A stretch of DNA of 64,000 nt from positions 757,501-821,500 of the forward strand of contig NC_058043.1 in the NCBI RefSeq assembly GCF_020085105.1, in the 5' to 3' direction. The notes under the pieces were generated by a model. The model was not told where the DNA came from, ran no database searches, and saw only the letters and a program-made list of their open reading frames with translations. Made by a program: the position numbers and the translations under genes. This document shows, piece by piece, positions 1 to 57,375 of the stretch. Source of the stretch: Siniperca chuatsi. Lineage: Eukaryota; Chordata; Actinopteri; Centrarchiformes; Sinipercidae. Position 1 is the stretch's first letter. Every line of letters begins with the position of its first letter.

Positions 1-106
1 TGTGTTTATGCATATATATGTTTGTATAAATGTATGTATATATATTTATATGTGTGTAAATATGTATATATATGTGTGTTTATATATATGTATGTATGCA
101 TGTATG

Positions 107-139
<33 letters not shown>

Positions 140-624
140 GTATGTATGTATATGTATATATAGTATGTATGTATGTATGTTTATATATGTGTATGTAAAT
201 ATATGTATGTATGTTTAAATAGGTATATACGCGTATATGTATATATGTTGTATGTATGTATGTATAAATGTATGTTTATATTTAAATATGCATGTATGTA
301 TATGTATGTATGCATGTATGTATATATTTATGTATGTATGTATGTGTATATATAGTTGTATGTATGTATGTATGTATGTTTGTATATATGTGTATGTAAA
401 TACATGTATGTATGTTTAAATATGTATGTCTATTTGTATATATGTATATATGCTTGTATAAATGTATGTGTATATATGCATGTATGTATGTATGTATATT
501 TATGTATGTATGTTTTTATATATTTGTATGTAAATATATATATATAAATTTGTATGTATGCATATATATGTACGTATGTGTATATGTATATATGTATATA
601 TATGTATGTGTATATATATATGCA

Positions 625-660
<36 letters not shown>

Positions 661-2031
661 TATAATATGTATATATGCATGTATGAATGTATTTCTATAT
701 GTATATTTATATATATGTATGTATGTAGTTATATATGTGTATATATGCTTGTATATATGTATATGTAAATATATGTATGTATGTTTGAATATGTATGTCT
801 GTTTGTATATGTGCATATATGTTTGTATGTATGTGTAAATATGAATATTTGTGTATATATGTATACATGTACGTGTATATATGCATGTATGTATGTATAT
901 AAGTGTATGTGTATATATGCATGTTTGTATAAGTGTATGTATCTATGCATGTATATATGTGTATATTAATGTACTAATGTATTAATATGTATGTATACAT
1001 ATATATGTATGTATGTATGTATGTGTATATATACTTGTATGTATGTTTGTATATATGTGTATGTAAATATATGTATGAATGTTTAAAAATGTATGTTTGT
1101 ATATATGCATGTATGCAAATATGTATGTATATAAGTGTACGTGTGTATGTGCATGTATGTATGTATGATGTATGTATAGTTATGTATGTATGTTTTTATA
1201 TATGTGTATGTATAGATATTTACGTGTGTAAATATGTATGTATATGTGTCTTTATATATGTATGTATGCATGTATGTATATGTATGTATGCATGTATGTA
1301 TATATTTATGTATGTATGTGTGTATGTATAGTTGTATGTGTAAATATGTATGTATGTGTATGTATGTATATGTTTGTGTCCATGTATAAATGTGTGTATA
1401 TATGTATGTCAATATGAATTCATGTATGTATGTTTGTGTTTATGCATGTATGTTTGTATATATGTGTATATATAAATATTTATGTGTGTGTAAATATGTA
1501 TGTATATGTGTGTTTACGTATATGTATGTATGCATGTATGTATACGTATGTATGCATGTATGTATATATTTATGTATGTATGTATGTATGTGTATATTTA
1601 CTTGTATGTATGTATGTATGTATGTTTGTATATATGTGTATGTAAATATATGTATGCATGTTTACACATGTGTGTCTGCATGTATATAATGTATGTATAT
1701 ATTTGTATATATGCTTGTATGTATGTATGTGTAAATGTGTATATATGTATATATATATGCTTGTAAATATATATGTATGTGAATATTTGTATACATGTAT
1801 ATGTGTATGCATGTATATATGTATGTATATTTGATGTATATATGCATGTATCAATGTATATCTATATGTATATTTATATATATGCATCTATGTATTTACA
1901 TATGTGTATATATGCATGTATGTATGTATGTGTTTAAATATATGTATATATATTTATATATGAATCTCTGTTTGTATATGTGTATATGTGCTTGCATGTA
2001 CAGTATGTATGTGTAAAAATGTTTGTATGTG

Positions 2032-2065
<34 letters not shown>

Positions 2066-3247
2066 TGTATATGTTTGTGTACATGTATAAATGTGTGTGT
2101 GTATATATATGTATTTACATATGTATGTGTATATGTATTCATGTATGTGAGTATGTGTGTGTTTATGCATGTATAGTTGTTTATATGTATGTATATAATT
2201 ATGTGTATGTAAATATGTATGTATATGTGTTTATGTATATGTATGTATGCATGTATGTATATGTATTCATGTATGTATATATTTATGTATGTATGCATAT
2301 GTACATATAGTTGTGTGTAAATATATATGTATGTGTACATATGTATGTATGTATATGTTTGTGTCCATGTATAAATGTGTGTATATATGTATGTATATGT
2401 GTGTTTATGTATATGTATGTATGCATGTATGTATATATTTATGTAGGTATGTATGTGTATATATACTTGTATGTATGTATGTATGTTTGTATATATGTGT
2501 ATGTCAATATATGTATGTATGTTTAAACATGTATGTCTGCATGTATATACTGTATGTATATATTTGTATATTTGCTTGTATGTATGTATGTGTAAATGTG
2601 TATATATGTATTTATGCTTGTATGTATGTATGTATGTATGTATGGACGTATATGTTTGTGTACATGTATAAATGTGTGTATATATGTATGTATTTAATAA
2701 TGTATGTGAATATGTATTTATGTATGTATGTATGTTTGTATTTATGCATGTATGTATGTATGTTTGTACATATTTGTATGAATATACATTTATCTGTGTA
2801 AATATTTATGTATGTATGTATGTATATATGTTTAAATATGTATGTATGTATGTATGTATATGTTTGTGTACATGTATAAATGTGTGTGTATATATGTATG
2901 TATTTATATATGTATGTGAATATGTATTCATGTACGTATGTGTTTATGCATGTATGTACTGTATGTTTGTTTGTATATATGTGTATGTATATGTATTTAT
3001 GTGTGTGTAAATATGTATGTATATGTGTGTTTATGTATATGTCTCTATGTATGCATGTATGTATATATTTATGTATGTATGTATGAATGTATGTGTGTAT
3101 TTCTATAAGTGTGTGTATATATGCATGTGTGTATGTATGTATGTATCTATGTATGTATGTATGCATGTATGTATATTTGTGTACGTATGTTTGTATATAT
3201 GTATGTAAATATATGTATATATGTTTAAACATGTATGTCTGCATATA
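1..3247 (+). repeat. Degenerate TATG tetranucleotide array, left arm
   Basis: Almost every base belongs to TATG/TATA/TGTA units read on the plus strand, with variants such as GTTTAAATATG and ACATGTATAAATG recurring every few hundred bases. It runs off the start of the window, so its full length is unknown. The reading frames through it (Met-Tyr-Val-Cys repeats) are a by-product of the repeat and are not genes. Confidence 0.97.
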
Positions 3248-5956
3248 TATGTAGTATGTAGTGTATACATATATACACATATATACATATTTACACATAC
3301 ATACAAGCATATATACACATATACAAACAGACATACATATTTAAACATACATACATATATTTACATACACATCTATACAAACACATACATACATACAAGT
3401 ATATATACTTGTATGTATGTATGTGTTTGTATAGATGTGTATGTAATATATATATATATACACATACATACATACATAACTTTATACATGCATGCATACA
3501 TATTCACATACATATATAAATACATACATATATACACACACATAAATATATACATACACATATATACAAACATACATACATACATACATAAACACACACA
3601 TACATAAATACATGAATACATATTCACATACATATATAAATACATATATACACACACATTTACACATGTACACAAACATATACATACATACATACATACA
3701 TACATATTTAAACATATATACATACATACAAGCATATATACATATATACAAATTTTCAAATACATACATACATATTTACGAGCATATATACACATATATA
3801 CATATTTACAACTACATACATACAAGCATATATACAAATATATACATACAGTATATACATGCAGACATACATCTTTAAACATACCTACATATATTTACAT
3901 ACACATATATACAACCACATACATACATACAAGTATATATACACATACATACATACATAAATATATACATGCATGCATACATATATATACATTAACATAC
4001 ACATACATACATATTTACACACACATAAATATCTATTCATACACATTTATACAAACATACATGCATAAACACACACATACATACATACATGAATACATAT
4101 TGACACATATATACACACACATTTATACATGTACACAAACATACACATACATACATACACATACATACATATTTACACATATATACATATAAAAAAGCAT
4201 ATATACATATATACAAATTTACACATACATACATACATACTTACAAGCATATACACAAATATATACATACAGACATACATGTTTAAACATACATACATTT
4301 ACATACACATATATACAGACATGCATAAATACATGCATACATTCTTACAGACATATTATATACACATACACACATACATACAAGCATATATACACATTTA
4401 CACATACATACATACATGCATATAAACAAATATATACATATATACAGACATACATATTTACACATACATATATTTACATACACATATATACAAACATACA
4501 TACTTAAATATACATACATCATACATACATACACACATACATACATGCATATGTACACGTACACTTATATACATACATATATGCATAAATACATGCATAC
4601 ATACATATATACAAACATACATATTTGAACATTCATACATATATTTACATACACATATATACATACATACATGCATACATATATACATACACACGTTAAT
4701 ACATTAGTACATTAATACATATACACATATATACATGCATACATACATACACTTATACATACATGCATATATACACATATATAAATACATACATGCATAT
4801 ATATAAATATACATATAGAAATACATTCAAACAAGCATATATACATCATATATACATACATATATACATGCATATATACGTACATACATATATACACATA
4901 TAAACATATACACATACATACATATATACATGCATACATACACATTAATATATATTTTACATAAACATATATAAAAACATACATAAATATACATACATAC
5001 ATACACACATACATATATACACATACACTTATACATACACATATACACACATACAAACATATATATGCATATATACACATACACTTATATACATACATAC
5101 ACATGCATACATACATACACATACATACATGCATATATATGCATATATATACGTACATACATACATGCATACATATGCATATACATAAATACATACATAT
5201 ACATTTATACACACAGTTATACATATATACATATTTACGCATACATACATACAAGAATATATACACATATATACATATTTACACATACATACATACAAGC
5301 ATATAACCATATATACATACAGACATACATATTTAAACATACATACATATATTTACATACACAAAAATACAAACATACATACATACATGCATACATATAT
5401 ACACACACACATTTATACATAAACCTACATATATAGACATGCATACACACACATACATACATACATGACTACATATGCACATACATATATACATGCATAC
5501 ATATATACATACATACATACATGAATATATATACATATATACATGCATACAAGCATATATACACATATACATACATACATTATACATTTATACATATACA
5601 CACATATATACAAACACATATACATACAAATACATTAATACATATACACATATTTACATGCATACATATATATACATACACGCATACATATATACATATA
5701 TACATGCATATGTATATACATGAATACACATACATATACACATACATAGATACACATACATACATGCATATATACACATACATGCATACATATACACATA
5801 TGTATACACATACATGCATACATATACACATACATTTAGACATATACACACATACATACATTTATACTTAAACACACACATATATACATATTTATACATA
5901 CATACATACAAGCATATATACACACATAAATACATATATATACAGGCATACATATT

Positions 5957-5992
<36 letters not shown>

Positions 5993-6198
5993 CATACACA
6001 TATATACCTGCATATGTACAGATACATTTTACATGTATACATACATGCATATATACACAAATATATATACATACATACATGCATGTAAACACAAATATAT
6101 ACACATACATACATGCATATATACACAAATGTATATACATACATAAATAGACATGCATACATATATACATACATACATAGACATGCTTACATATATAC
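3248..6198 (-). repeat. Degenerate CATA array, right arm in opposite orientation
   Basis: From about 3248 the array changes to CATA/TACA units, the reverse complement of the left arm, and continues to the solo LTR at 6199. A short remnant (tatacatacatatata) continues after that LTR. Phrases from the left arm reappear inverted here, for example the block around 3206-3246 against 3318-3363. The two arms together form an imperfect inverted repeat of roughly 6 kb. Confidence 0.95.
3361..3446. repeat. 86-bp perfect palindrome
   Basis: The segment begins ttacatacacatctatac and ends with its exact reverse complement, with no spacer. Symmetry is about the centre at 3403/3404 and breaks at 3360/3447. 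It lies about 110 bp beyond the strand switch of the array and could extrude as a cruciform. Confidence 0.93.
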
Positions 6199-6635
6199 TG
6201 TCACAGCCTGTCATGTCCTCACCAGCCAGTAACCACATACACATTGCACTCCCTCATCTGAGCACTAATCCAAGACACCTGTCACCTATCACACACCTGC
6301 ACTTAATCAGCACTCCACTCCCCTATAAAACACCATCCCTCTCCTCAGTCAGTTTCCGGTCTCGTTTAGTAAAGGACAGATCCCAATATCATTCCAAGAC
6401 TACGTTACGGACTCCTACCTCGCTTTTGCTAAATCCCACGAACTCCAGTCTCCTGAGTGTGTCTCCACAGCCCCCGATCTTCAGTCTCCTGTGTGGGGCT
6501 CTGCAGCCCCAGTTCTCCAGTTCGGCAAGCCAAAAGGACAGTATCAGTAACATTTCCACTTTGCCTATCATATCGTGCTCAATAAACTAAACTCCTGTCT
6601 CATCTTGGTGTCACCGGCCTGCTCTGTCCGTAACA
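6199..6635 (+). mobile_element. Solo LTR, Ty3/Gypsy-type
   Basis: The 437-bp segment begins TGTCACAG and ends CCGTAACA, the TG...CA termini of an LTR. It has a TATA-like box (tataaaa, 6324) and a polyadenylation signal (aataaa, 6581) in the right order. The 5-bp direct repeat tatac lies immediately outside both ends (6194-6198 and 6636-6640), which shows insertion into the tetranucleotide array. No internal coding region is present, so it is a solo LTR. The Gypsy assignment rests on general form only. Confidence 0.85.
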
Positions 6636-9161: not shown

Positions 9162-9601
9162 CTGCATGAATGTAGAAGGAATAAGGAAGTACTGGCCGGA
9201 CGAAGTTTCAGTTTAAAAAGACAAAAAGAAGGTTTGGAATCTTTAATAAAATGTATTAAATCATAAAGCAACATAATTCAAAAGGGATTCATTATTACAG
9301 GTGAAATGGTTCCACACAGGTGTTCTCTCAGGACTGCTGATCATCGGGGATAAATGAAAACACCTGTGCAGGTGTGCAGGGATTTTTAGAACAGCTTTGT
9401 TAGCTTTGTGGCTATGACAATAGCTGAGATAATAGTATGACAATAAAAGAGTAAAATAAGTGATGGGATTGAGATTAAGGGCTCTTCTCCCTCTCTCTGA
9501 AATATGACCTGAAACTGCAGCTCAGCAGAGTCTGACAGTGTGCTGCTGCCCCCTATAGGACTGTCGTCTGCACAACAAGCAGGCTGCATGTCAGATCTGA
9601 C

Positions 9602-9750
9602 ATAACAGTATGTTAACAGTGACAACGCTAACATGCTGATGTTTAGCAGGTATAATGTTTACCATGTTCACCATCTTAGCATAGTGTGTTAGCATGCTAA
9701 CATCAGCTAGTTAGCAGTACACACAGAGTGCAGCTGAGGCTGATGGGAAT
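9602..9750 (+). mobile_element. Dispersed GCTAACATG/TTTAGCAGG repeat fragment
   Basis: It contains acatgctgatgtttagcagg, ccatgttcaccatcttagc and gagtgcagctgaggctgatg, landmarks of a common teleost repeat seen at six further places in this window. Here it is cut off after gatgggaatg by the deletion specific to copy A. Confidence 0.75.
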
Positions 9751-10116
9751 GTTCACATGAAGACAGAAGAAATCTTCTTACCCACTGTCTACACCATTCC
9801 CTGGTACCTATTACAGTACAAACTACCCCTCTCCAACAATACTCCACGTTACCCCTTTCCCAGAATATTCCCAGGTTTTCACTAAGTTATATTTTAACTC
9901 CTCCACCGAGTTCAAACTACTTTGAACATGACCAGCTGTTGCTGCAGCCTGCTGCACACCATCAGTCCACAGTCCAGTGTTAAAGGTGAAGCGACAGCAT
10001 TTAGCAGAGGAGGTCTGACAGAGCTCCACCCCTCACCTGACTCACCTGAGACAAACCAGGAAACAGTCAGTTCCTGTTCAGTTCTCAGTGAGAAGAGACG
10101 CAGAGACAGACAGACG

Positions 10117-10345
10117 GTAAGATTTACCTTCATTACAAAGCTGTGACTTCAGCTGAGGGAGGACAGTTACAGGGGGGAGTACTGAAGAACTGAAGCACTG
10201 AAGTAGAGAAATACTTCAACTGCAACCTGCTGCTGACTGAAAAACACTCAGAGACTCAAAGTGAAAGTAACTGAGGCAACTTTCTACAGCAGGGAGGGGA
10301 ACACAACTGACTTCCTGTTGTAACGTGCTGTCTGCTGTGTTTCAG
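10117..10345 (+). other. Predicted 5' UTR intron of TRIM gene 1
   Basis: The donor is gacagacg|gtaaga and the acceptor is gctgtgtttcag|cttcac, 17 bases before the start codon. The same sites are kept in both other copies (21430-21650 and, on the minus strand, 57375-57147). The first exon would be wholly non-coding. Inferred from consensus and conservation, not from transcripts. Confidence 0.65.
10258..10271 (+). promoter_or_regulatory. IRF-element-like site in 5' UTR intron
   Basis: aaagtgaaagtaac matches the core bound by interferon regulatory factors (repeated GAAA-type half sites, as in the positive regulatory domain of the IFN-beta promoter). It is present identically in copy C and as cgtgaaagtaac in copy B. 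Function is inferred from the motif. Confidence 0.4.
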
Positions 10346-10362
10346 CTTCACTCAGAGACAAA

Positions 10363-11751
10363 ATGGCTTCCAGATCAGAGGAGGAACTCTGCTGCCCGGT
10401 CTGTCATGACGTCTTTAGAGATCCTGTTCTTCTGTCATGTAGCCACAGCTTCTGTAAAGACTGTCTGCAGAGCTGGTGGAGAGAGAAACCAGCACACGAG
10501 TGTCCAGTTTGTAAGAGAAGGTCTTCAAAGGAAGAACCACCTTTAAACCGGGTGTTAAAGAACCTGTGTGAGGCCTTCTTACAGGACAGAGGTCAGAGAG
10601 CTTCAGAGGCTCTCTGCAGTCTGCACTCTGAGAAACTCAAACTCTTCTGTCTGGACCATCAGCAGCCAGTGTGTGTCGTCTGCAGAGATTCAGAAAAACA
10701 CAGCGACCACAGATTCAGACCCATCGATGAAGCTGCACGACAACACAAGAAGAAACTTCAGGAAACTCTGGAGCCCTTAAAGAAGAAGTTACAGGTTTCT
10801 GAACAAGTTAAAGTGAAGTTTGGTCAAACAGCAGAACACCTGAAGGTCCAGGCCCGACACACAGAGAGGCAGATTAAGGAGCAGTTTAAGAAGCTTCACC
10901 AGTTTCTAGAAGAGGAAGAGGAGGCCAGGATGGCTGCACTGAGGGAGGAAGAGGAGCAGAAGAGTCAGATGCTGAAGGAGAAGGTGGAGGCTCTGAGCAG
11001 AGAGATAGCAGCTCTTTCAGACACAGTCAGAGCCACAGAGGAGCAGCTGAGAGCTGAAGACGTCTCATTCCTGCTCAACTACAAGGCTGCAGTGGAAAGA
11101 GTCCAGCAGCGCCCCCTGCTGGAGGATCCACAGCTGCCCTCAGGAGCTCTGATAGACCAGGCCAAACACCTGGGCAACCTGACCTTCAACATCTGGAACA
11201 AGATGAAGGACATGGTTTCCTACACTCCTGTGATCCTGGACCCAAACACTGCTCATCCAAGACTCATCCTGTCTGAAGATCTGACCAGTGTGAGAGAAGG
11301 AGAGAGACAGCAGCTTCCTGACAATCCAGAGAGGTTTGATTATTTCACCTCTGTCCTGGGCTCTGAGGGCTTCAACTCAGGGACTCACAGCTGGGAGGTC
11401 GAGGTTGGAGACAGTACAGTCTGGAGACTGGGTGTGTTAGCAGAGTCTGCCCAGAGGAAGGGAGACATACAGTCTGGATTCTGGAGAATAGGGTTATATA
11501 GCGGTAAATACTCAGCACGCTCACTACCAGATCCACCCACTGCTCTCCGAGTGCAGAAGAAGCTCCAGAGGATCAGAGTGAATCTGGACTGGAACAGAGG
11601 AACGCTGTCGTTCTCTGATCCTGATACTAACAGACACATACACACCGTCACACACACTTTCACTGAGAGGATGTTTCCATACATTATGACTGGGGATGAA
11701 CTGCAGATATCAGCAGTGAAGGTCTGTGTGACAGTGGAACAGAGCAGTTAG
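10363..11751 (+). CDS. TRIM family E3 ubiquitin ligase (TRIM35/NF7-like), copy A
   Basis: 462 residues in a single coding exon. A RING finger lies near the N-terminus with ligands C11, C14, C26, H28, C31, C34, C47 and C50. A B-box type 2 follows (C85, H88, C96, H99, C104, C107, H113, H116), then a Lys/Glu-rich coiled coil (about 120-245) and a PRY-SPRY domain (about 285-460, with [11 protein letters not shown] and [10 protein letters not shown]). Such proteins transfer ubiquitin through the RING and choose targets through SPRY; many fish members are interferon-induced and cytoplasmic. The start has A at -3 and G at +4 and follows a conserved splice acceptor. Length and domain order are complete, so it appears functional. 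Differences from copy B concentrate in SPRY (27 changes in about 172 residues against 7 in the first 290). The subfamily name is tentative because fish TRIM35-like, zinc-binding A33-like and NF7-like proteins are hard to separate by eye. Confidence 0.92.
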
Positions 11752-12823
11752 AGATAAAGAGGATGATTATATTTATGATGATGTTTATTTCTTAAAGGGA
11801 AAAGTCTCTGAATTGAACGTGTGAAGCTGCACCTGTCCTCCTGCTGCCTCATTATTCCAAACGTATGTTGATCTTTATTCACTCACGGTTTTACTGTTGT
11901 ATTTCTTTTTCTTGTTATTTAGTTCAACACTTTTAGTTTCAGACCAATCAGAAACGAGTATTTAACAAAACCATGTAATAAATTATTTCATTAAACATGT
12001 AAATTCCTCTTAAATCACATCAACTTTCTCTCATTTTAAACAACTTCTGCATACTTCCAGGTAATACTTGATTTTTAACTCTATATGTGATTTGAGCCGT
12101 TTTAAAGTCGAACAAGAGTTTTTAATTGAAACTACAGTTTGTTGGTTCATGGTTTGTAGTTTATAGTTCTTGTGGCTCTTTTTAAGGATGAAAATTGGAT
12201 TTGTATTTGTTTTATTTGTATTTCTTCAGACTTCCACACAGTAAGTCATATATCAACTATAAGAGAACAATGTATAATGATATATAAAGCTACATAATGA
12301 GGCTTGATTTAGAAAATCCTTCATTTTATACAGTACTGACTGACATTTGTGCTTCAGTATCAACATGTTTCTGTTAGCAGGACTGCAACTTTGTATTACT
12401 AGTAAAGGTATAAATAGTGTGTATATATTGTTTTTTAGGGTCATCTTTCAGTATCAAAAGTGTGTTTCTGCCCCGTTGATGATGGTAACGACATGTTTTG
12501 ATGTTTGCTCAGTAAATTCTGTTATCAGAGCTCCAACCAGTCAGAAGCTTCTGTAGAAACTAAACTAAAACTGCTCAAAATAAAACTGTTAAATCTTGGT
12601 TTTCATCACACATGAACCTTCCCTCCTTCTCTGATCACTTCTCCCTTTATATCTGCATTACGTTTCACCGGCCTCAGGCTTCAACGCAGTGCTTCTCATA
12701 TATTACATCCTGTCAGATGTGTCACTTACAGTGTGCTGTGTCAGATACATCATATGTTAGTGGGAGGTCTCACACTGCAAACCTCACCACACTCGGTCCT
12801 GTCAGTTCACTTCCATGTTTGTT

Positions 12824-13635
12824 CCTAATGTTCCTAATTAGTTCATTCATCCGTCTTTCACATTATCGTTTAATTATCTTGGTTTTCTTTTGTTTCATTT
12901 TCATTGTGAAAACAAGGTCAGTTAATAATTTCCATCATAGTTGACAGACATATAAACACCTGGCAAAGAATTCAAAACCGCCTCTGTGGTAGTTCCATCT
13001 ACTGTAGGTGTCTCCAGGACCACATTTTGCCATGATGACACACACACACACACAAGGTGAAAACAATACCAGCCATGCCGTCACGGCTGGTAAAAGAAAC
13101 GATCATCGCCATGTAAACGAAACCTAAATCTACAATCCTGCATCCTAGGTCTGGCCTAGTCCGCAGAGAGACAATAAGAGCAATAAGAAAAGGCAGGATT
13201 ACGTCTTAGATGTCAAATGAAAATTATTCGTAAATTCATGACACACAACAGAAAGAGAATGAAAGACAAACACATACCCCAGGCCACACTATTCTTCATC
13301 TTAGAAAAAATAACTAAACAACATAAAAAATGTCTTTGCTTTGGTTGAGTTTGTTAAATGTTGGCCATCATGTCAAATACATTACATTCAACTTTACCCA
13401 ACTTTGCATTAAACACATCCAGCTCACCATTAATATGTTCTCAAAGTGGAATTGTTGAAATTGAAAGTTCTTTCTTTCACTCAACCTTTAGTTATACACG
13501 GTGGTCCAATGAGAGAAGTTCACTCGTGTTTGCATAATGAGCACCAGAAAGTGATATGCAACCCTTTCTGTCACTTTTTAATCGACGGGTGATGGATAGT
13601 GACCTTTGATTAAACATGAATTAAACCCCACCCCT
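12824..13635. other. No gene seen; short (CA)n
   Basis: Unique-looking intergenic sequence. It holds a (CA)9 run at 13037-13054 and a small hairpin, accagccatgccgtcacggctggt, at about 13070. No coding frame stands out. Confidence 0.5.
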
Positions 13636-13675
13636 TGATCCTCCCTCCCTCCGGAAGTGGTCAGCGCTTTGCGTG

Positions 13676-13790
13676 GACCAATGAGCATGAAGCAGGCATG
13701 GGAGTGAAGTAGGCATTGTGAGTAGGAGCCAATGAGTGTGAAGCAGGCATGGAGAGCAGGAGCTAATGGGAGTGAAGTAGGTGTGGAAAT
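13676..13790 (+). repeat. CCAAT-containing minisatellite, left arm of an inverted pair
   Basis: Imperfect units of about 34 bp share the form agccaatgggagtgaagnagg, with CCAATG at 13678 and 13729 and a CTAATG variant at 13763; an isolated further CCAATGGGAG is at 13996. The reverse complement of the same unit lies at 18547-18643. Both arms end in gaagtaggtgtgg(a/g)aatga and point inward. CCAAT boxes are NF-Y binding sites, so each arm could act as a promoter. Confidence 0.75.
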
Positions 13791-14216
13791 GAAATAAACC
13801 CTGTAAATGAAATATGATTAAATAATTCAATCATTTAAGTGAAATCAATAGTATCAAAATTATAAAAAATAATTTACAAACTTACCATCTGTAAAATCTA
13901 ATCTTTCAGGAGAAAAAGACATGTCTTTCTCTGTTGTCTGTCTGGTGCAGAGTGAGGTGTGAATGAATTGGGAGGGTAGGCAGAGTTTGCATGAACCAAT
14001 GGGAGCGCAGCAGGCGGGGATACGGCTGCCCATCAAGGTGTGGATGAAAATGAAGACTGGAAAAGCAGAAAAACTGGAGGATCTCTTCCTACATTGAGAG
14101 ACATTCTGATGATAAAAAAGACTCTGTTTACAGAAGACACCACCCCCAACTCCTCCTCTGACTCTGACTCCGCCTTGTAATTCATTCCACTTAAAACAGG
14201 TACCCCGGAAATGTCA

Positions 14217-15121
14217 CACTCACACACTCTGAGAAAAAGCATGCCTCTTCCTCTTCTACCACAACCAGAAAGCAGAGAATCGTCTCTGACTCTGAGAACA
14301 GCCATGTCTCTCCCTTGTATCCTGCGACCCGGGAGCCCGGATACCATTGGGACCCCTGTGGCAACACCATCGGAGACCGAGACCCCTCTTAGGATACGAC
14401 CAAGCTGTTTTGCTATGCATCACGAGGAGGGTGGGAATGCGACAATCCCTTCTCCACCACCACCTCACTGTTAGCCTACCCTGTGGAGGAGGAGGAGAAC
14501 CCTACATTTGATCCCAGAAGAGAACCCTGCAGCAGCGCTGCAGGAGCTTGATACGGTTCCTGAAGAAGCAGCAGCACCGCTGCACATTGGGAGCCCTATC
14601 CTCGATATGACACCCCCACCTTCACCGCCGGGGACCCCTGACTGGATTCTACACCATCTCCCCCCCTCGACTGGCCCTCTTCTTCTTCTTTGGTATCCTC
14701 AGCTCCAAGCGCCTCACCACCCCCCTCTCCCAAGAAAAAGGGACAAACCTGACGGGGTGCTCTCTGACCTATTTCTCTAAACACGGTGAGGGTCGTGGTG
14801 GTTCGCCTGTTGAGCAAGGCTCTGACCGCATACAGATCTGAAATCTGTAACGGCTGTCAAATTGATCACCCAAGTCAGCTACAACACGAATGTCTGTTTG
14901 AGATGCCAGATTATTTCTTCCAACGGCACTACAATGAGTTGATGAAACGGCTTTGGATGGATTGTTTTATCAGAGCCGTTCAACGGGCACTTCAAGCACG
15001 CCTTGTCCACGTGTCTGCATATAGAGTCCATGGCGCTTCCGAGGCCTTTCTTCATAACCTCAAAATGACAAGACGCATCGGAGAGAAAATGGAGAAGATG
15101 TACGACGCGCTGATCGGTTAA
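14217..15121 (+). pseudogene. Frameshifted orphan gene with C-terminal Cys/His domain
   Basis: I do not recognise this gene. Protein-like sequence runs through changing frames. From about 14231 there is a basic, Ser/Thr-rich start (KKHASSSSTTTRKQR, then VSDSENS) with one TAG, through VEEEENPTFDP. It then shifts to an acidic, Pro-rich segment (ALQELDTVPEEAAAP, PPPSPPGTP; about 14505-14645) and back to a Ser/Pro stretch ending SPPPSPKKKG (about 14750). From 14786 an open frame of 111 codons holds CNGCQIDHPSQLQHECL, in which C-x2-C-x3-H-x5-H-x-C could bind zinc, followed by an amphipathic helical-looking tail to TAA. A disordered S/P/E-rich N-terminus plus a compact Cys/His C-terminus would suit a nuclear regulatory protein of a virus or large transposon; that is inference. 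The 111-codon frame begins with GTG, so it is an exon or fragment, not a complete gene. Confidence 0.45.
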
Positions 15122-15529
15122 GACGAGAAAAGATTGAGCTGATGAACTATGTTGCGGACTTTTGGAAGGGAATTGAGTGATTCAAAAAATGGGTAATTAT
15201 TGCAGAAAACTTGACTTATATAGAGGAACGTGTAATCGTTAATCAGTTAATCAATGTTTTAGATCAGGTGATTAAAACAAAGTCACTCATGTTGTGGATA
15301 ACGATGTTTTTTTTATTTAGAGACGAAGTCGCTAGACTTTAAAAGATTTTGGACATTGTTTGAAATGTTGAAAATTGGGATCAGATAGTAAGCAACACAT
15401 TATTGGTCTCATCAATTATCCTCTGAATACAATTTTTAACCAATGTGACGTTATTCTGGGGGATAGGTTAATTTCACAATCCAGAGCACCGTGATGAAAA
15501 ATGGGCTACTGGAACAAGATGGAGATGGG

Positions 15530-17600
15530 CGAGATGCGACAACAAGGCTCTGTTAGAATGCTACTAATCCAGTAACCCTAGTCAGAGGGGTTACATGCAA
15601 AGGAAGTGGGATGAATGGTTACTTCGAAACCCACAATCAAGGCTTACAGTGAAGCAACTAGTAGCTTAGTGTTCCAACATCCACAACCGGCAACTGCTAT
15701 CACAACTTGACATTGACGAGATACACAAATGCTACGGCAAGGGGGAGTGAGGACAACAGGTCTCGTAGAAGATGTGAATGCATTGAGTGCGATCCCTACC
15801 ACAACCATCACCAAAACCAATGAGCTGATATACACTTCAGCAGCGATCCTCGAGATGCTTGGCTATAAGAGCAACCATTGGAGCCATGAGAAACAGTACC
15901 CACCACGGAAACTAAAATCAAGGAGGCACAGAGAGAAGTGAGCCAACTGACAGAGGCCGAGAGAGGTTCAATGAAAGGCTGGAAACTGAACAGTACTGGA
16001 AAAGTATATGGGAGAGGGAGGCACCTTGAGGCCAACAAGTGTCCATCAAATGTGGCATATACCAAGGAGATGCTCTGTCCCCACTGCTGTTCTGCATAGG
16101 TCCGACTCAGGAATGGGGCCACCATCAGTCACCTCCTCAACATGGATGAGCTATACACTAAGAGCGAGCGGGATCAGCGACTCACTGGTCCACACCACCA
16201 GGATCTCATTTGGGCTTGAGAAGTGTAGTCGAATGATGACAAAGAGAGGGAAGGTAGTCCACACAGAAGGGGTCTCACTCCCAGAAGGAACAATAGCAGA
16301 CATTGAGGATGGTTACAAGTACCTTGGAATACCACAGGCAAATGGCAACCTCGAAGAGGTAACAAGGAAAACAGCAACTGCCAAATACCTCCAACGAGTA
16401 AGGCAAGTCCTAAGGAGTCAGCTCAATGGCAAGAACAAGGCCCAGGCAATAAACAGCTACGCCCTGCCAGTGATCAGATACCCTGCAGGAATAATAAGGT
16501 GGCCAAAGGAAGAGATACAGACCACAGACGTTAAGACACGAAAGCTCCTCACCATGCATGGAGGGTTCCATCCCAAATCCAGCACCCTGAGACTGTACGC
16601 TAGCCGTAAGGAAGGCGGCCGTGGACTAGTGAGTGTGAGAGCCACTATCCAGGATGAAACATCCAAGATCCACAAGTACATCAGAGATAAGGCCCCAACA
16701 GACGATGTGCTCAGTGAATGTCTCAGGCAATGGGGAACAGAGGAAGAGGTGCTGGAGGAGGGACCATCATGGGAGGACAAACCCCTACATGGGATGTACC
16801 ACTGGAACATAACTGAAGGGGCTGATATCAAGAAATCCTACCAATGGCTAGAGCGGGCTGAACTGAAGGACAGCACAGAGGCACTCATCATGGCTGCACA
16901 GGAGCAGGCCCTGAGCACCACAGCAATAGAGACCCAGATCTACCACACCAGACAAGACCCAAGGTGTAGGCTGTGCAAAGAGGCCCTTGAGACAATCCAG
17001 CACATAACTGCAGGGTGTAAGATGCTGGCAGGGAAAGCATACATGGAGCGCCATAACCAAGTGGCTGGCATAGTGTGCAGGAACATCTGCACGGAGTATG
17101 GACTGGAAACCCCGAGGTCAAAGTGGGAAACACCTCCAAAGGTGGTAGAGAATGACCGGGCCAAGATCCTGTGGGACTTCCAGATTCAGACTGACAGAAT
17201 GGTAATGACAAACCAACCAGACATCGTGGTGGTGGACAAACAGCAGAGGAAAGCCGTTGTGGTTGACGTGTCAATACCTAGTGATGGCAACATCAGGAAA
17301 AAGGAACATGAGAAACTAGAGAAATACCAAGGGCTCAGAGAAGAGCTGGAGAAGGCTTGGAAGGTGACGGCGACAGTGGTGCCAGTGGTCATCAGAGCAC
17401 TCGGGGCAGTGACCCCCAAACTGGAGGAGTGGCTACAGCAGATCCCTGGAAGAACACCAGACATCTCAGTCCAGAAAAGTGCAGTACTAGGAACAGCAAA
17501 GATACTGCGCAGAACCCTCAAGCTCCCAGGCCTCTGGTAGAGGACCTGAGCTCGAAGAATGAGACCACCCGCGGAGGGTGAAGGACGAAGTTTTTAAAAC
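15530..17600 (+). pseudogene. R4/Dong-type non-LTR retrotransposon, internally deleted
   Basis: Reverse-transcriptase-like sequence begins near 15588 (GYMQRKWDEWLL, then QLLSQLDIDEIHKC) and is broken by frameshifts and stops. It resumes with CGIYQGDALSPLLFCIG (about 16045), so most of the palm domain is missing; the catalytic Asp-Asp region reads MDE here. From about 16200 a long frame stays open to TAG at 17540. It covers YKYLGIPQANG, a Cys/His motif (CRLCKEALETIQHITAGC) and a restriction-like endonuclease (PDIVVVD, AVVVDVSIPSD, KEHEKLEKYQGL). That C-terminal order is typical of the R2/R4 group, in which the endonuclease follows the reverse transcriptase. The R4/Dong label is a best guess. 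It interrupts the block bounded by inverted minisatellites. Confidence 0.8.
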
Positions 17601-17896
17601 ATTTTTTTAATAAATATATAAATAAAAACACGAAGATAATATTTATGAGAAACACTATAACTCAAACCAGCGGCTATAATACCTTATGAGAGTCAACTTT
17701 GTAGAAATTACATTTTAAAGCACAACCTCTTTAATTTCACGCGTACAAAACCTTCCGTGTTTGCTTATGATGTAAAATGAGAGAAAAGTAGAGAAAAGGA
17801 AGGTACATGTGTTCCCTGCTGGGTAATTATTACATTTATCTGGCGTGATTGAATCGTCTCACAATGTACCGTAAAACAATTTAAAAGCAAATAGAC

Positions 17897-18461
17897 TTAC
17901 AGTGTGCCGCTGGAAGCCCTACGGGATCTCAAGTGTGGATTCTCAGAACTGGAACTGGTTCTCCTGTGGTTGCGACCCAGTGAGAATCCTGGATCTCTGT
18001 CCGCTGGTTGAGCACTAGACCTCCACAGCCGTCCGTGGTTGATTAGGTCAGACTTGATTAGAGGTGTCAGTTGATGACTCTGAAAGACATAATTTATAAT
18101 CACGATAGGAAATAAAAGTCTTGAAATATTTCTGTATTAAAAATACACAATATAGACCTGTACTTACCAGACTCCTCTGCTTGAAGGTTCAGCCCTCCGT
18201 TTAGAGTCACTGCAAAGAATGAAAAAACTCCCTATGTTTTTGCCTAAAGGTTTAAACGCATGAAATATAGTTTTAAAGCCATTTCCCATTGTCCCATAAG
18301 TGTGTATGAAAGTGTTGTCCGGCTGACATGCATTCAGCATACCATAAAGCCTTAAAAGAGACATTCCTCAGTCTGTCTTCACACAGTCTGCCTTCAAGAA
18401 GAGCAACAAACAGCATGGGCACCCCATATGGTTTATATTTACCCTGTGTAAGGAGTTTCAC
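17897..18461 (-). pseudogene. Orphan spliced-looking sequence, right half of the inverted-repeat block
   Basis: I do not recognise a family. On the minus strand, frame VKLLTQGKYKPYGVPMLF...ECMSAGQHFHTHLWDNG (18461-18273) overlaps a second frame, NGFKTIFHAFKPLGKNIG...CSDSKRRAEPSSRG, as if one frameshift separates them. The latter ends at a donor-like gagtctg|gtaagt. An acceptor-like tgtctttcag at about 18084 opens a Ser/Arg-rich stretch (RRTSSSSENPHLRSRRASSG) ending at another donor-like cacact|gtaagt. Joining these sites does not give one continuous frame, so the sequence is either degraded or non-coding. It reads inward from the right minisatellite arm, mirroring the gene on the left. Confidence 0.35.
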
Positions 18462-18546
18462 CCGCTAATTTCAGACTGCCTTCACAGATGATTGAGTAGC
18501 AAGGAATCTTCAGAAAGAGCAACAAACTTTGACCCTTTTTTCATTC

Positions 18547-18643
18547 CCACACCTACTTCACTCCCATTGGCTCCTGCTCACCATGCCTTCTTCACTCCCA
18601 TTGGCTCCTGCTAACCACCCCTGCTTCACTCCCATTGGCTCCT
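18547..18643 (-). repeat. CCAAT-containing minisatellite, right arm of an inverted pair
   Basis: Three units of 33-34 bp share tncttcactcccattggctcctnc, the reverse complement of the 13676-13790 units. CATTGG boxes are at about 18565, 18599 and 18633. Units here are more regular than in the left arm. Confidence 0.8.
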
Positions 18644-18971
18644 ACAGTCCAACAGTCCAAAATCCAACAGTTAAACAAACATATAAAAATTACAAGACTG
18701 CAAAGAGGGGTAACATGGAGAATGGGTTAAAGGCATGAAACCAGCATTTAATAAAATAAAAAAACACCAGTATGACATCAAAATCTACACTGCACTCAGA
18801 TCTAACCACTGCAGGTGCAGCAAGAATCAATGTTGGACTAAAAATGTAAAATCTGCCAAAAAAATGAGTCGATCTAACTTCCTGAGTGAAGTCAAACATT
18901 TAGATGATGTTTTACAACAGATCCAAGAAATTCAGACTGTTTTCCTACAAGTGCTTTATAAATATATTCTA

Positions 18972-19125
18972 ATTCATGTGGAGGAAACCTTGTACATGCT
19001 TCTATAACATCCAGAATCGATCACTATAATGCACTTTTATCTGGCGTACAGCACAAAAACAAAGCAGCGCGAGTTTTTACAAAATCTAAGAAGTTTGATC
19101 CTATAACACCTCAAAATCCTCCTTT
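18972..19125 (+). pseudogene. L2-type LINE reverse transcriptase fragment
   Basis: One open frame reads LVHASITSRIDHYNALLSGV, then KAARVFTKSKKFDPITP, the conserved tail region of L2/CR1-type reverse transcriptases. The ~20 residues normally between those blocks are missing, and nothing of the rest remains. Confidence 0.7.
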
Positions 19126-19239
19126 TCTTTAGTCTTTCAGCAGGACAGGAAGCCGGCGGTGGGGAGACTGGTAGAGGAGCTGGTAGAACCATTGATGTCC
19201 GGGAACCCGGAGCCTGCCACTCCGGCAGAGAAAGAGGGT

Positions 19240-19610
19240 ACTGCTGCTGCAACGCAGCAGAGGGTTCAGCGGTGTGCCGCGACCCAGCAGACGGTCCAGC
19301 AGACGGTTCAGCGGCATGCTGTGACCCAGCAGACTGTTCAGCGGTGTGCTGTGGTCCACGCGGGGCAGGAGGCGGCTGCGATCCAGTGGCAGCGAGGGAT
19401 TGGTGCTGCTGCGATCCAGCGGCGACGAGGGATTGGTGCTGCTGCGATCCAGCTGGGAAAGTGATCAGCAGAGTCCTGGGACCGGGAGCTGCTGCGATCC
19501 AGCAGAGAGTCCTAGGACAGGAGCTGCTGCGATCCAGCAGGGAGTGATGGCTGCTTCGATCTAGCAGGAAGTGACGGCTGCTGTGATCCAGCAGGGAGTG
19601 ATGCAGTCTG
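19240..19610. repeat. GC-rich tandem repeat (gatccagcagg / acccagcagac units)
   Basis: Short units such as gctgctgcgatccagc and cgacccagcagacggttcagcgg recur about a dozen times with variable spacers. They give a Gln/Ala-rich frame on one strand and a Leu/Pro/Ser-rich frame on the other. The stretch lies directly next to an LTR fragment, so it may be the leader or early coding part of a retroelement. I cannot identify a product. Confidence 0.7.
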
Positions 19611-19879
19611 ATAACTGTGAGGACTACCGAGAGCCAGGCTGGTGCCTAGGTATGGGTTCGGAACTGGGACTGGTTCGGGACAGGAAGATTTCAGGCTCAG
19701 GTAACCAAGTCTGACTGATAAAGAGCTAGCAGGCAGTCTGGCTGGAAAACCGGCTGAGTAGCAGGCAGGGTTGTAGGCTGGGATGTGTCTGGGTATGCAG
19801 GTAGTCCGTGAGCCACTCAGGGATGGCCTCCCTGAGCCCAGGCAATGTTGAAAGTTTTGTTTCTACCCGACATCTGATT

Positions 19880-20106
19880 GCCTCTCTGTGGGACTCGTTG
19901 ATCCGACACTGAACAAAGAAAATACCTGGACTAAATACCCTAAGGGAGGTGAGACAATGAGACACAGGTGCAAACAATCAAGGAAGGGCCAACAATCAAA
20001 ACTGGAGGGAAAGCAAACAAAGACAGGAAGTAAACCCACAAGACACACAAGGAGAGGAACACACTACAAAGTAAAACAGGAAATGACAAAACCTCAAACT
20101 ACAACA
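19880..20106 (-). mobile_element. LTR fragment, family shared with 48.1-48.5 and 58.7-59.2 kb
   Basis: The plus strand shows gagacacaggtgcaa, caatcaaaactggaggga, agcaaacaaagacaggaag and a terminal actacaaca, the same ordered phrases as the two other copies. On the minus strand the LTR would begin TGTTGTAGTTTG. Its edge coincides with the left edge of duplication copy B, so the insertion truncates or marks that boundary. Confidence 0.75.
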
Positions 20107-20449
20107 AATTCAAAAGGAATTCATTATTACAGGTGAAATGGCTCCACACAGGTGTTCTCTCAGGACTGCTGATCATCGGGGATAAATGAAAACACCTGTG
20201 CAGGTGTGCAGGGATTTTTAGAATAGCTTTGTTAGCTTTGTGGCTATGACAATAGCTGAGATAATAGTATGGCAATAAAACAGTAAAATAAGTGATGGGA
20301 TTGAGATTAAGGGCTCTTCTCCCTTCATTCACTCTGGTTTACATGAAATATGACCTGAAACTGCAGCTCAGCAGAGTCTGACAGTGTGCTGCTGCCCCCT
20401 ATAGGACTGTCGTCTGCACAACAAGCAGGCTGCATGTCAGATCTGACAT

Positions 20450-20690
20450 AACAGTATGTTAACAGTGACAACGCTAACATGCTGATGTTTAGCAGGTATA
20501 ATGTTTACCATGTTCACCATCTTAGCATAGCGTGTTAGCATGCAAACATCAGTTAATTAGCAGCAAACACAGAGTGCAGCTGAGGCTGACGGGAATGTCA
20601 TCAGCTCTGCAGGTATTTGGTCAGAAAACAAAGTGTTGGACACGGTAACATGTCGACCTGATGGTGGCACTAGAACCTTGAAAGTTCAAT
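20450..20690 (+). mobile_element. Dispersed GCTAACATG/TTTAGCAGG repeat, fuller fragment
   Basis: The fragment matches the one in copy A and continues through catcagctctgcaggtattt and acatgtcgacctgatggtgg. Its presence at the same place in both copies shows that it predates the duplication. Confidence 0.8.
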
Positions 20691-21429
20691 TACCACAGAG
20701 TTATTAAACTGTTGTCAAACTACCAAATGAACCTGGATAAAGATTCAGATTTCTTACAGTTTAATACTGTCCGTCAAACAAGAAGGAACCAAACCTAAAA
20801 GCAGGAAGACAAGACAGATGACGTTGAGTTGACTCATTGTTTAGCATGCTAACATTCACCTCTCCCTGTGGCACAAACAAAGCTGCTTTTTATTCCAAAT
20901 ATCATACAAGCCAAGACTCCGAGCCGCCTCCAAGCTGTTTACACCCCGATACTCCCCCTCCAGTGTTCAACCAGCTACTGATGTCACAGTTGGCTGCTTC
21001 ACTGATGCTCATTCACTCAGAGTCAGTGTTCACATGAAGACAGAAGAAATCTTCTTACCCACTGTCTACACCATTCCCTGGTACCTGTTACAGTACATAC
21101 TACCCCTCTCCAACAATACTCCACGTAACCCCTTTCCCAGAATATTCCCAGGATTTCACTAAGTTATATTTGAACTCCTCCACCAAGTTCAAACTACTTT
21201 GAATATAACCAGCTGTTGCAGCAGCCTGCTGCACACCATCAGTCCACATATCCAGCAATGAATCAAGACTTTGGAATGAAACACAACCTGTGTTACAGGT
21301 GAAGCAACAGCATTTAGCAGAGGAGGTCTGACAGAGCTCCACCTCTCACCTGATTCACCTGAGACAAACCAGGAGACAGTAAGTTCCTGTTCGGTTCTCA
21401 GTGAGAAGAGACGCAGCGACAGACAGACG

Positions 21430-21650
21430 GTAAGATTTACCTTTATTACAAAGCTGTGACTTCAGCTGAGGGAGGACAGTTACAGGGGGGAGTACTGAAG
21501 AACTGAAGCACTGAAGTAGAGAAATACTTCAACTGCAACCTGCTGCTGAATGAAAAACACTCAACGTGAAAGTAACTGAGGCAACTTTCTACAGCAGGGA
21601 GGGGAACACAACTGACTTCCTGTTGTAACGTGCTGTCTGCTGTGTTTCAG
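21430..21650 (+). other. Predicted 5' UTR intron of TRIM gene 2
   Basis: Donor cagacg|gtaaga and acceptor tgtgtttcag|cttcac match those of copy A. This copy is shorter by eight bases because of a small deletion just before the IRF-like site. Confidence 0.65.
21565..21576 (+). promoter_or_regulatory. IRF-element-like site (copy B variant)
   Basis: cgtgaaagtaac keeps the GTGAAAGT core although the adjacent bases differ from copies A and C. Confidence 0.33.
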
Positions 21651-21667
21651 CTTCACTCGGAGACAAA

Positions 21668-23056
21668 ATGGCTTCCAGATCAGAGGAGGAACTCTGCTGT
21701 CCGGTCTGTCATGACGTCTTTAGAGATCCTGTTCTTCTGTCATGTAGCCACAGCTTCTGTAAAGACTGTCTGCAGAGCTGGTGGAGAGAGAAACCAGCAC
21801 ACGAGTGTCCAGTTTGTAAGAGAAGGTCTTCAAAGTCAGAACCACCTTTAAACCGGGTGTTAAAGAACCTGTGCGAGGCCTTCTTACAGGACAGAGATCA
21901 GAGAGCTTCAGAGGCTCTCTGCAGTCTGCACTCTGAGAAACTCAAACTCTTCTGTCTGGACCATCAGCAGCCAGTGTGTGTCGTCTGCAGAGATTCAGAA
22001 AAACACAGCGACCACAGATTCAGACCCATCGATGAAGCTGCACGACAACACAAGGAGGAACTTCAGGAAACTCTGGAGCCCTTAAAGAAGAAGTTACAGG
22101 TTTCTGAACAAGTTAAAGTGAAGTTTGATCAAACAGCAGAACACCTGAAGGTCCAGGCCCGACACACAGAGAGGCAGATTAAGGAGCAGTTTAAGAAGCT
22201 TCACCGGTTTCTAGAAGAGGAAGAGGAGGCCAGGATGGCTGCACTGAGGGAGGAAGAGGAGCAGAAGAGTCAGATGCTGAAGGAGAAGATGGAGGCTCTG
22301 AGCAGAGAGATAGCAGCTCTTTCAGACACAGTCAGAGCCACAGAGGAGCAGCTGAGAGCTGAAGACGTCTCATTCCTGCTCAACTACAAGGCTGCAGTGG
22401 AAAGAGTCCAGCAGCGCCCCCTGCTGGAGGATCCACAGCTGCCCTCAGGAGCTCTGATAGACCAGGCCAAACACCTGGGCAACCTGACCTTCAACATCTG
22501 GAACAAGATGAAGGACATGGTCTCCTACACTCCTGTGATCCTGGACCCAAACACTGCTGATCCAGAACTCATCCTGTCTGAAGATCTGACCAGTGTGAGA
22601 CGAGGAGAGAGACAGCAGCTTCCTGACAATCCAGAGAGGTTTGATGATTACTGGTCTGTCCTGGGCTCTGAGGGCTTCAACTCAGGGACTCACAGCTGGG
22701 AGGTCGAGGTTGGACACAGTACAGACTGGAGACTGGGTGTGTTAGCAGAGTCTGTCCAGAGGAAGGGAGACATACGCTCTGGATTCTGGGGAATATGGTT
22801 CTATGGAGGTAAATACTCAGCATGGTCACCATCAGCTCCACCCACTGCTCTCCGAGTGCAGAAGAAGCTCCAGAGGATCAGAGTGAATCTGGACTGGAAC
22901 AGAGGAACGCTGTCGTTCTCTGAACCTGATACTAACACACACATACACACCTTCAGACACACTTTCACTGAGAGGATGTTTCCATACATTAACACTGTGC
23001 ATGAAATGCAGATATCAGCAGTGAAGGTCTGTGTGACAGTGAAACAGAGCAGTTAG
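21668..23056 (+). CDS. TRIM family E3 ubiquitin ligase (TRIM35/NF7-like), copy B
   Basis: 462 residues, same length and single coding exon as copy A. All RING (C11, C14, C26, H28, C31, C34, C47, C50) and B-box 2 zinc ligands are kept, as are the coiled coil and PRY-SPRY. Outside SPRY it differs from copy A at only seven positions (for example [22 protein letters not shown]). Inside SPRY 27 residues differ, clustered in loops: [29 protein letters not shown] and YINTVHEMQ. Nearly all nucleotide changes in those clusters alter the amino acid. The expected role is RING-dependent ubiquitin transfer with target choice by SPRY, in the cytoplasm. The gene shares the 5' UTR intron and IRF-like motif, so both copies are probably regulated alike. 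Confidence 0.92.
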
Positions 23057-24000
23057 AGATAAAGAGGATGATTATATTTATGATGATGTTTATTTCTTAA
23101 AGGGAAAAGTCTCTGAATTGAACCTGTGAAGCTGCACCTGTCCTCCTGCTGCCTCATTATTACATTATTTTAAATGGACTATAAGAGAACAATGTATAAT
23201 AATAATATATAATAATAATATAATAATATATAATTCTGTTAGCAGGACTGCACCTTTGTATTACTAGTAAAGGTATAAATAGTGTGTATATATTATTTTA
23301 TTGTTTTTTTAGGGTCATCTTTCAGTATTAGCAGTGTGTTTCTGCCCCGTTGATGATGGTAACAACATGTTTCGATATTTGCTGAGTAAATTCTGTTATC
23401 AGAGCTCCAACCAATCAGAAGCTTCTGTAGAAACTAAACTAAAACTGCTCAAAATAAAACAGTTAAATCTTGGTTTTCATCACACATGAACCTTCCCTCC
23501 TTCTCTGATCACTTCTCCCTTTATATCTGCGTTACGTTTCACCGGCCTCAGGCTTCAACGCAGTGCTTCTCATATATTACATCCTGTCAGATGTGTCACT
23601 TACAGTGTGCTGTGTCAGATACATCATATGTTACCGGGAGGTCTCACACCGCAAACCTGACCGCACTCGGTCCTGTCAGTTCACTTCCATGTTTGTCCAG
23701 TTTGAAGAACCTTAAATTTGTGCTTGAGTTCAGTGTGCAACCGTGAAATGTTTCCCCCTCAGCTGCTGCTGTTCCCTGTTCTGACAGCAGGTGGGAGTGT
23801 TGAGCTTCTCTCTTTTCTTCTTCTGAATGATTTATCAGCGTGTACCTCCCTCTCTCCTCTCTGTGTGCTGTGTCTGTATATGTACGTGTGTGTACATGTG
23901 TGTGCGTTTGTGTCTGGGGGGGGGGCAGTCTAATCAACAAATGTCATCTATCTGATGATCCTCGTCAGGCCGATTTTCATCTTACATGTCTGTGCCTGCC

Positions 24001-27294: not shown

Positions 27295-27336
<42 letters not shown>

Positions 27337-28722
27337 TTCCTGTATATGCACCAAAGTGGGGTCCAAATAAATTCACATGAGAGGTGAGGACCACCCTTCT
27401 GCTATACTTGGAGACAAATGAATGCTGGATTTCAGCACTAGGTGGCTCCCTGACCTCAGTTTCCACCTCAGCTTCTTTAATAAAAACTAAAACATTTTAC
27501 CAGTGAAGTGAGGACCTTTTCATGGGGGTGCTATTGGGTTTGTTTCAGAATAGACTAGTTTAACTGCCTTCTGTCTTTAGCTTGTAGTTAATCTTTGCTA
27601 CCATTTTATGTTTTAGTACAGATAAATAATTTAATAATGCTTATAAAATCCTCTGCAGAAAGCAAAGCAACACACATGCACACACACATTCCTGTATATG
27701 CACCAAAGTGAGGTCCAAATAAATTCACATGAGAGGTGAGGACCACCCTTCTGCTATACTTGGAGACAAATGAATGCTGAATTTCAGCACTAGGTGGCTC
27801 CCTGACCTCAGTTTCCACCTCAGCTTCTTTAATAAAAACTAAAACATTTTACCAATGAAGTGAGGACCTTTTCATGGGGGCGCTATTGGGTTTGTTTCAG
27901 AATAGACTAGTTTAACTGCCTTCTGTCTTTAGCTTGTAGTTAATCTTTGCTACCATTTTATGTTTTAGTACAGATAAATAATTTAATAATGCTTATAAAA
28001 TCCTCTGCAGAAAGCAAAGCAACACACATGCACACACACATTCCTGTATATGCACCAAAGTGAGGTCCAAATAAATTCACATGAGAGGTGAGGACCACCC
28101 TTCTGCTATACTTGGAGACAAATGAATGCTGAATTTCAGCACTAGGTGGCTCCCCTGACCTCAGTTTCCACCTCAGCTTCTTTAATAAAAACTAAAACAT
28201 TTTACCAATGAAGTGAGGACCTTTTCATGGGGGCGCTATTGGGTTTGTTTCAGAATAGACTAGTTTAACTGCCTTCTGTCTTTAGCTTGTAGTTAATCTT
28301 TGCTACCATTTTATGTTTTAGTACAGATAAATAATTTAATAATGCTTATAAAATCCTCTGCAGAAAGCAAAGCAACACACATGCACACACACATTCCTGT
28401 ATATGCACCAAAGTGAGGTCCAAATAAATTCACATGGGAGGTGAGGACCACCCTTCTGCTATACTTGGAGACAAATGAATGCTGAATTTCAGCACTAGGT
28501 GGCTCCCTGACCTCAGTTTCCACCTCAGCTTCTTTAATAAAAACTAAAACATTTTACCAATGAAGTGAGGACCTTTTCATGGGGGCGCTATTGGGTTTGT
28601 TTCAGAATAGACTAGTTTAACTGCCTTCTGTCTTTAGCTTGTAGTTAATCTTTGCTACCATTTTATGTTTTAGTACAGATAAATAATTTAATAATGCTTA
28701 TAAAATCCTCTGCAGAAAGCAA

Positions 28723-28761
<39 letters not shown>

Positions 28762-57129: not shown

Positions 57130-57146
57130 TTTGTCTCTGAGTGAAG

Positions 57147-57375
57147 CTGAAACAAAGCAGACAGCACGTTACAACAGGAAGTCAGTTGTGTTCCCCTCCC
57201 TGCTGTAGAAAGTTGCCTCAGTTACTTTCACTTTGAGTCTCTGAGTGTTTTTCATTCAGCAGCAGGTTGCAGTTGAAGTATTTCTCTACTTCAGTGCTTC
57301 AGTTCTTCAGTACTCCCCCCTGTAACTGTCCTCCCTCAGCTGAAGTCACAGCTTTGTAATAAAGGTAAATCTTAC
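57147..57375 (-). other. Predicted 5' UTR intron of TRIM gene 3
   Basis: The minus strand reads cagacg|gtaaga at the donor (57375) and gctttgtttcag|cttcac at the acceptor (57147), matching copies A and B. Confidence 0.65.
57222..57234 (-). promoter_or_regulatory. IRF-element-like site (copy C)
   Basis: aaagtgaaagtaa on the minus strand is identical to copy A and sits at the same place in the intron. Confidence 0.4.

Follow-up and report, generated by a model that had tools for sequence, protein, structure and literature searches.

Adintoviruses and Polintons (Mavericks) have inverted terminal repeats in animal genomes and small regulatory genes near their ends, and the target duplication of Polintons is 6-bp. 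Two-gene DNA transposons with subterminal repeats are also known, PIF/Harbinger being an example. Within the Parvoviridae, terminal repeats are described as self-priming hairpins (PMC11357303), and the sea-star densoviruses are reported to be ambisense, with NS1, NS2, NS3 and VP (PMC7737747). Additionally, zinc-finger NS3-like proteins, to which four conserved cysteines are ascribed, are described as common to densoviruses, bidnaviruses, baculoviruses and a nudivirus (PMC4061559). In the literature that we searched there was no recognised description of a unit such as the one considered here.

We analyzed a decayed block of ~5 kb whose neighbours on either side are immune genes, namely two TRIM genes in tandem, each with an open frame. 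Throughout, the window refers to the whole 64-kb stretch of DNA analyzed, and all positions are those of the window. Our main reading, which we put forward tentatively with a probability of about 0.37, is that the block is the decayed remnant of a two-ended mobile or viral element of unassigned family with promoter-bearing inverted repeats. The features to which we refer are as follows.

9269-12822, plus strand: left tandem copy, with a TRIM gene inside (open frame 10324-11751)
13674-13797, plus strand: left arm, consisting of irregular ~34-bp CCAAT units and an inner shoulder outside the repeat (TGTGGAAATGAAATAA); its inverted partner is 18536-18659
13963-14097, plus strand: short frame without a Pfam match; no codon score in the block exceeds that of its reading frame (+0.13, 13910-14149)
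13968-14052, plus strand: degenerate stretch oriented as the left arm, possibly a third arm unit (CCAAT at 13996; score 48-49)
14195-14548, plus strand: Ser/acidic-rich part of the left frame, in two pieces (14195-14389 and 14393-14548) of the same frame with a stop between them
14475-14777, plus strand: Pro-rich piece on the left, in another frame, without a family match
14768-15118, plus strand: 117-aa piece of the left frame with a zinc-like motif (CNGCQIDHPSQLQHEC) and no convincing family match
15500-17600, plus strand (ends approximate, by eye): probable broken LINE, C-terminal part of an R2/R4-type protein
17901-18079, minus strand: second exon-like piece, open in one frame, with splice sites by eye that fall under the scan threshold
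18168-18209, minus strand: exon-like piece with acceptor and donor signals
18536-18659, minus strand: right arm, consisting of three ~34-bp CCAAT units and the inner shoulder, in the orientation opposite to that of the left arm
20102-23696, plus strand: right tandem copy, with a TRIM gene inside (open frame 21629-23056)

The direct repeats that carry the two TRIM genes (9269-12822 and 20102-23696) align in pieces that are 94.4-94.7% identical, and the stretch from ~12823 to 20101 between them belongs to the duplicated stretch of neither copy. These 3.5-kb direct repeats were also considered as very long LTRs, a candidate that we rejected because each repeat is one copy of a tandem TRIM gene duplication. 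The window has three open TRIM frames of 475 aa, 10324-11751 and 21629-23056 in tandem and 55741-57168 inverted, the inverted copy being 94.7-95.9% like the other two at the DNA level. The TRIM frames contain RING, B-box, PRY and SPRY domains as determined by Pfam (for the left copy, the first 316 residues were scanned). Together with the repeats and the type of the LINE, the type of these TRIM genes suggests that the host is probably a fish.

Several other repeats are found in the window. A G+C-rich minisatellite with 27-42-bp units (19255-19603) adjoins the block, and its neighbour at 19905-20101 is a dispersed repeat with other copies near 48.3 and 59.0 kb. Positions 1-6200 are a 6-kb simple-repeat array, (TATG)n to ~3266 and then (ACAT)n to ~6198, whose halves resemble reverse complements and whose GC skew flips from +0.70 to -0.72. 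Lastly, 27318-28746 is a tandem satellite with a 352-bp unit in 4.1 copies (98% matches).

The initial annotation had placed the same ~34-bp CCAAT unit at both edges of the block in inverted orientation, and our analysis agrees with that placement. TRF detected arrays of the ~34-bp unit at 13698-13781 and 18547-18643, in opposite orientation. The ungapped core of the arms (13698-13797 and 18536-18635) covers 100 nt at 87% identity (BLASTN E 7e-28), and the gapped alignment of 13674-13797 with 18536-18659 reached a score of 152. As a control, we aligned 977 random segment pairs from the window, which had a mean score of 27. Two control pairs scored above the arms, at 186 and 156, and both were pairs of TRIM copies; the next scores were 149 (overlapping the arms), 101 (another dispersed repeat) and then 70. 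The 20-base unit probe CACTCCCATTGGCTCCTGCT, allowing up to 3 mismatches, matched 5 times in 64 kb where 0.01 matches were expected, twice in the left arm and three times in the right. The initial annotation had also raised the question of arms occurring alone elsewhere; at up to 3 mismatches the probe gave no further match outside the arms within the 64-kb window.

The similarity of the arms extends past the tandem units, inward into the common shoulder and outward by a few bases. Because the match reaches beyond the tandem array, a common origin of the two arms is probable, rather than two minisatellites that arose by chance. Copies in the left array are irregularly spaced, at 51, 34 and 233. 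The arms differ by 13%, more than the 5-6% between the tandem TRIM copies, and therefore the arm pair would predate the tandem duplication, provided that the arms were identical at origin and that neither gene conversion nor fast minisatellite change misleads this comparison. The possible third unit at 13968-14052 is weak and only suggestive, as 5 of 1947 random segments reach a score of 48.

As putative termini, the arms were compared together with their flanks. These alignments did not yield exact ends of the block, and the flanks have no direct repeat longer than 10 nt in common, a single 10-nt repeat lying away from the arm ends. As DNA, neither arm folded better than its shuffled versions (z +0.82 and +0.94), and three neighbouring stretches used as controls gave z values of -0.44, +0.38 and -0.82. 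The fold result disfavours parvovirus-type telomeres, at least as the arms are preserved. The arm pattern had no match in IMG/VR, and its sole bacterial match, in a Flavobacterium locus (L006), was taken as chance.

The CCAAT boxes point inward at both edges, four of five on the left (13400-14100) and all three on the right (18400-18700). A TATAAA sequence is also found inward of each arm, at 13861 on the plus strand and at 18432-18437 on the minus strand, which is a weak sign because the DNA is AT-rich. With these signals, the arms may have driven transcription into the block.

On the left side, the pieces 14195-14389, 14393-14548 and 14768-15118 share one frame. Read by eye, they give a Ser/Pro/acidic N-terminal part followed by a 104-117-aa part with the zinc-like motif, whose pattern is CxxC-x9-HxC (within 14768-15118, plus strand); this last piece may, again by eye, continue with a change of frame as far as a stop at 15180. 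We scored codon usage with a training set that consisted of all three TRIM frames plus a portion of the LINE. The left frame came first among the six frames throughout six successive windows (14750-15289), it led again in 14270-14689 (with one tie), and a minus frame led in four windows (14510-14929). The left frame scored between -0.06 and -0.29, which overlaps the top range of a noncoding control at 12823-13542 (best scores -0.13 to -0.32), and the TRIM control, which is part of the training set, scored far above the left frame at +0.34 to +0.42. Stops per 360 codons on the left numbered 12, 16 and 12 in the plus frames and 16, 11 and 7 in the minus frames; because one minus frame has only 7, these counts do not favour the plus strand. 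The Pfam search of the 14195-14548 pieces returned nothing better than E 0.19, and the predicted structure of the 104-aa left piece had a mean pLDDT of 49.4. Taken chiefly on its motif and its steady frame, the left frame is a possible pseudogene.

A single dispersed minisatellite of promoter- or enhancer-like character (a MITE, a solo terminal repeat or a duplicated promoter) could instead have been placed at both edges in opposite orientation, the DNA between the two copies being unrelated, decayed host or repeat sequence. We consider this explanation doubtful, although several of the observations above suit it: the arrays are irregular and unequal in length, the block contains a weak third copy in direct orientation, no exact termini emerged, and codon usage between the arms scores no higher than in the noncoding control. 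It fits less well with arms that face each other and have shoulders outside the repeat in common, or with a probe that has no further match in 64 kb.

The open frame in the middle of the block, 15990-17537, encodes 516 aa of LINE-like sequence. In Pfam this frame matched zf-RVT with an E of 2.3e-4 and 22.2 bits, under the cutoff of 27.5, as well as L_protein_N (E 0.0029) and BsuBI_PstI_RE (E 0.13), each under the curated cutoff. At E up to 1, its only matches in the PDB were three R2 retrotransposon proteins (E 0.13-0.22); its C-terminal 316 residues alone gave no R2 match there. Judged by sequence likeness, the middle element is probably an R2/R4-type LINE. The dead R4-type LINE claimed earlier for this position is thus upheld as a LINE-like frame, and likely as to its type by zf-RVT and R2, but the 516-aa frame had no Pfam match to a reverse-transcriptase domain.

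Further analysis of the right side rested on splice signals, stops and codon usage. A splice scan of the minus strand of 5.4 kb returned 22 acceptor-like and 2 donor-like sites, and with so many splice-like sites the exon-like piece at 18168-18209 may be a matter of chance. One minus frame on this side contains 10 stops in 307 codons and the other five frames contain 16-22, and codon usage on this side singled out no clear frame. A facing gene on the right is weakly supported, hardly beyond the two exon-like pieces. Of the protein-like sequence that had been said to read inward from each edge, the left frame with its motif was recovered; its codon scores, however, do not exceed those of the noncoding control, and the right side yielded only short pieces.

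The exon-like piece with its splice signals would be expected if host genes and promoters had decayed and been rearranged by inversion or inverted duplication in the TRIM cluster, leaving two pseudogenes, duplicated CCAAT promoters and ordinary introns. The locus did undergo both tandem and inverted duplication, as seen from the TRIM genes at 10.3, 21.6 and, inverted, 55.7 kb. We nevertheless find this explanation unlikely: splice-like sites are frequent by chance in the scan, the arm probe is absent from all three TRIM copies, the orphan pieces lack a convincing Pfam match, and the left piece lacks a match to a solved protein.

For Pfam, we scanned 37 proteins: 34 frames of the block (four of them LINE), one frame immediately to its right and two TRIM frames. 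Without the TRIM frames these amount to 35, or half of the 70 listed frames of at least 40 aa. As the initial annotation had noted for transposases and polymerases, the 34 block frames had no Pfam match to a transposase, replicase, polymerase, integrase, ATPase or capsid. They also had no Pfam match to NS1 with its SF3 helicase, and the LINE occupies the middle of the block. Profile searches of the orphan pieces, a step that the initial annotation had suggested, brought up no convincing kin among the pieces scanned. The best Pfam match of the orphan pieces had an E of 0.12 and none was convincing, the best PHROGs match (E 0.26) was not taken as real, and the best NCBIfam match was to a bacterial regulator (E 0.016; 14.9 bits against a cutoff of 219). 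The left piece, which alone was compared with the PDB, had a best E of 1.5, and it matched no phage record at E up to 1.

Searches of IMG/VR with the left piece were similar in outcome. Its peptide pattern matched 27 stretches, none of which was confirmed by tblastn. A scan with the zinc motif returned 5 loci that we took as chance; a stop falls within the motif in two, two have identical sequence, and one (L004) is part of an open frame of 125 aa. Two other zinc-motif scans converged on a single locus, L007, with a similar motif. The zinc-motif locus L008 was set aside, since a frame on its opposite strand looked likelier by eye, and one further scan returned no locus.

A giant-virus-like contig (L007) encodes an AAA ATPase with intein-type domains and, at 1204-1464, a small protein with a C.GC....PNQL.H....GGC-like zinc motif. 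This protein and the left piece share C.GC....P[SN]QL.H (7 of 14 identical) at an E of 2e-4, which is not independent evidence because L007 was itself picked with that motif.

We consider it improbable that the block represents a known type of endogenous small DNA virus, be it an ambisense parvovirus (densovirus), a bidnavirus or an adintovirus/Polinton, with the left frame an NS3-like zinc protein and the right an opposite-strand gene: the ~5 kb length, inverted ends and inward reading would agree with it, as would the NS3-like zinc-finger proteins reported in densoviruses, bidnaviruses, baculoviruses and a nudivirus (PMC4061559), the ambisense gene layout described for sea-star densoviruses (PMC7737747) and the resemblance of the L007 protein to the left motif (at an E-value that is not independent), but the arms show no hairpin folding (z +0.82, +0.94), NS1, polymerase, integrase and capsid are unmatched in the frames scanned, and a viral-contig relative is unconfirmed, with 0 of 27 pattern matches upheld by tblastn.

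The reading that we favour, at the tentative level given above, is that of a two-ended remnant, mobile or viral in origin and now decayed, whose inverted repeats bore promoters. A single mobile or viral unit of DNA would have integrated between two TRIM genes. Its inverted-repeat ends would have doubled as promoters, by means of CCAAT arrays with a possible TATA box, and a transcript would have run inward from each end. The left transcript may have encoded a protein whose N-terminal part was disordered and Ser/Pro/acidic and whose small C-terminal domain bound zinc, perhaps similar to a nuclear regulator. The middle of the unit, the expected site of a replication or capsid gene, would have been lost or replaced. 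The LINE would later have broken the integrated unit, which decayed. Of the mobile or viral layout proposed in the initial annotation, the inverted promoter-like arms, the inward left frame and the LINE are retained; that all of these belonged to one unit is our conjecture, for which neither exact termini nor, in the frames scanned, a transposase, replicase or capsid match were found.

We give a still smaller chance, a slim one, to the block being the relic of an undescribed lineage of small DNA viruses in a vertebrate genome, whose inverted terminal repeats would be not hairpins but CCAAT promoter arrays driving a pair of convergent transcripts, and whose zinc regulator would be of a kind common to arthropod ssDNA and dsDNA viruses. 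The evidence at present is one decayed locus. If copies exist, their alignment would reveal whether there was once a spread through fish of a small DNA virus or of a two-gene transposon with promoter-bearing ends. A relationship of the left frame to the NS3-like proteins, if there is one, would place a gene of arthropod viruses in a vertebrate.

The comparison with known systems is mixed in each case. Similar to adintoviruses and Polintons, the block has inverted ends in an animal genome; in contrast to them, its scanned frames match no integrase, PolB, ATPase or capsid, and neither exact ends nor, in consequence, a 6-bp target duplication were found. Two-gene DNA transposons resemble the block in its inverted ends and perhaps in two transcription units, but the block has no transposase-like family match. 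For the middle of the block, the likeness is to Rex6 and R4-type LINEs, through weak zinc-knuckle-like and restriction-endonuclease-like matches at the C-terminus, a placement made by weak profile and R2 matches only. The ambisense densoviruses (Parvoviridae, Densovirinae) and the Bidnaviridae differ from the block in that its frames as scanned match no NS1, VP or PolB and its arms have no hairpin, a comparison in which the true ends of the block may be missing. With these viruses the block has in common its size, its inverted ends and its inward reading (weak on the right). Additionally, the left frame has a zinc-like motif, CxxC-x9-HxC, and a putative kinship of this frame to NS3, drawn from the description of the zinc finger, is a lead.
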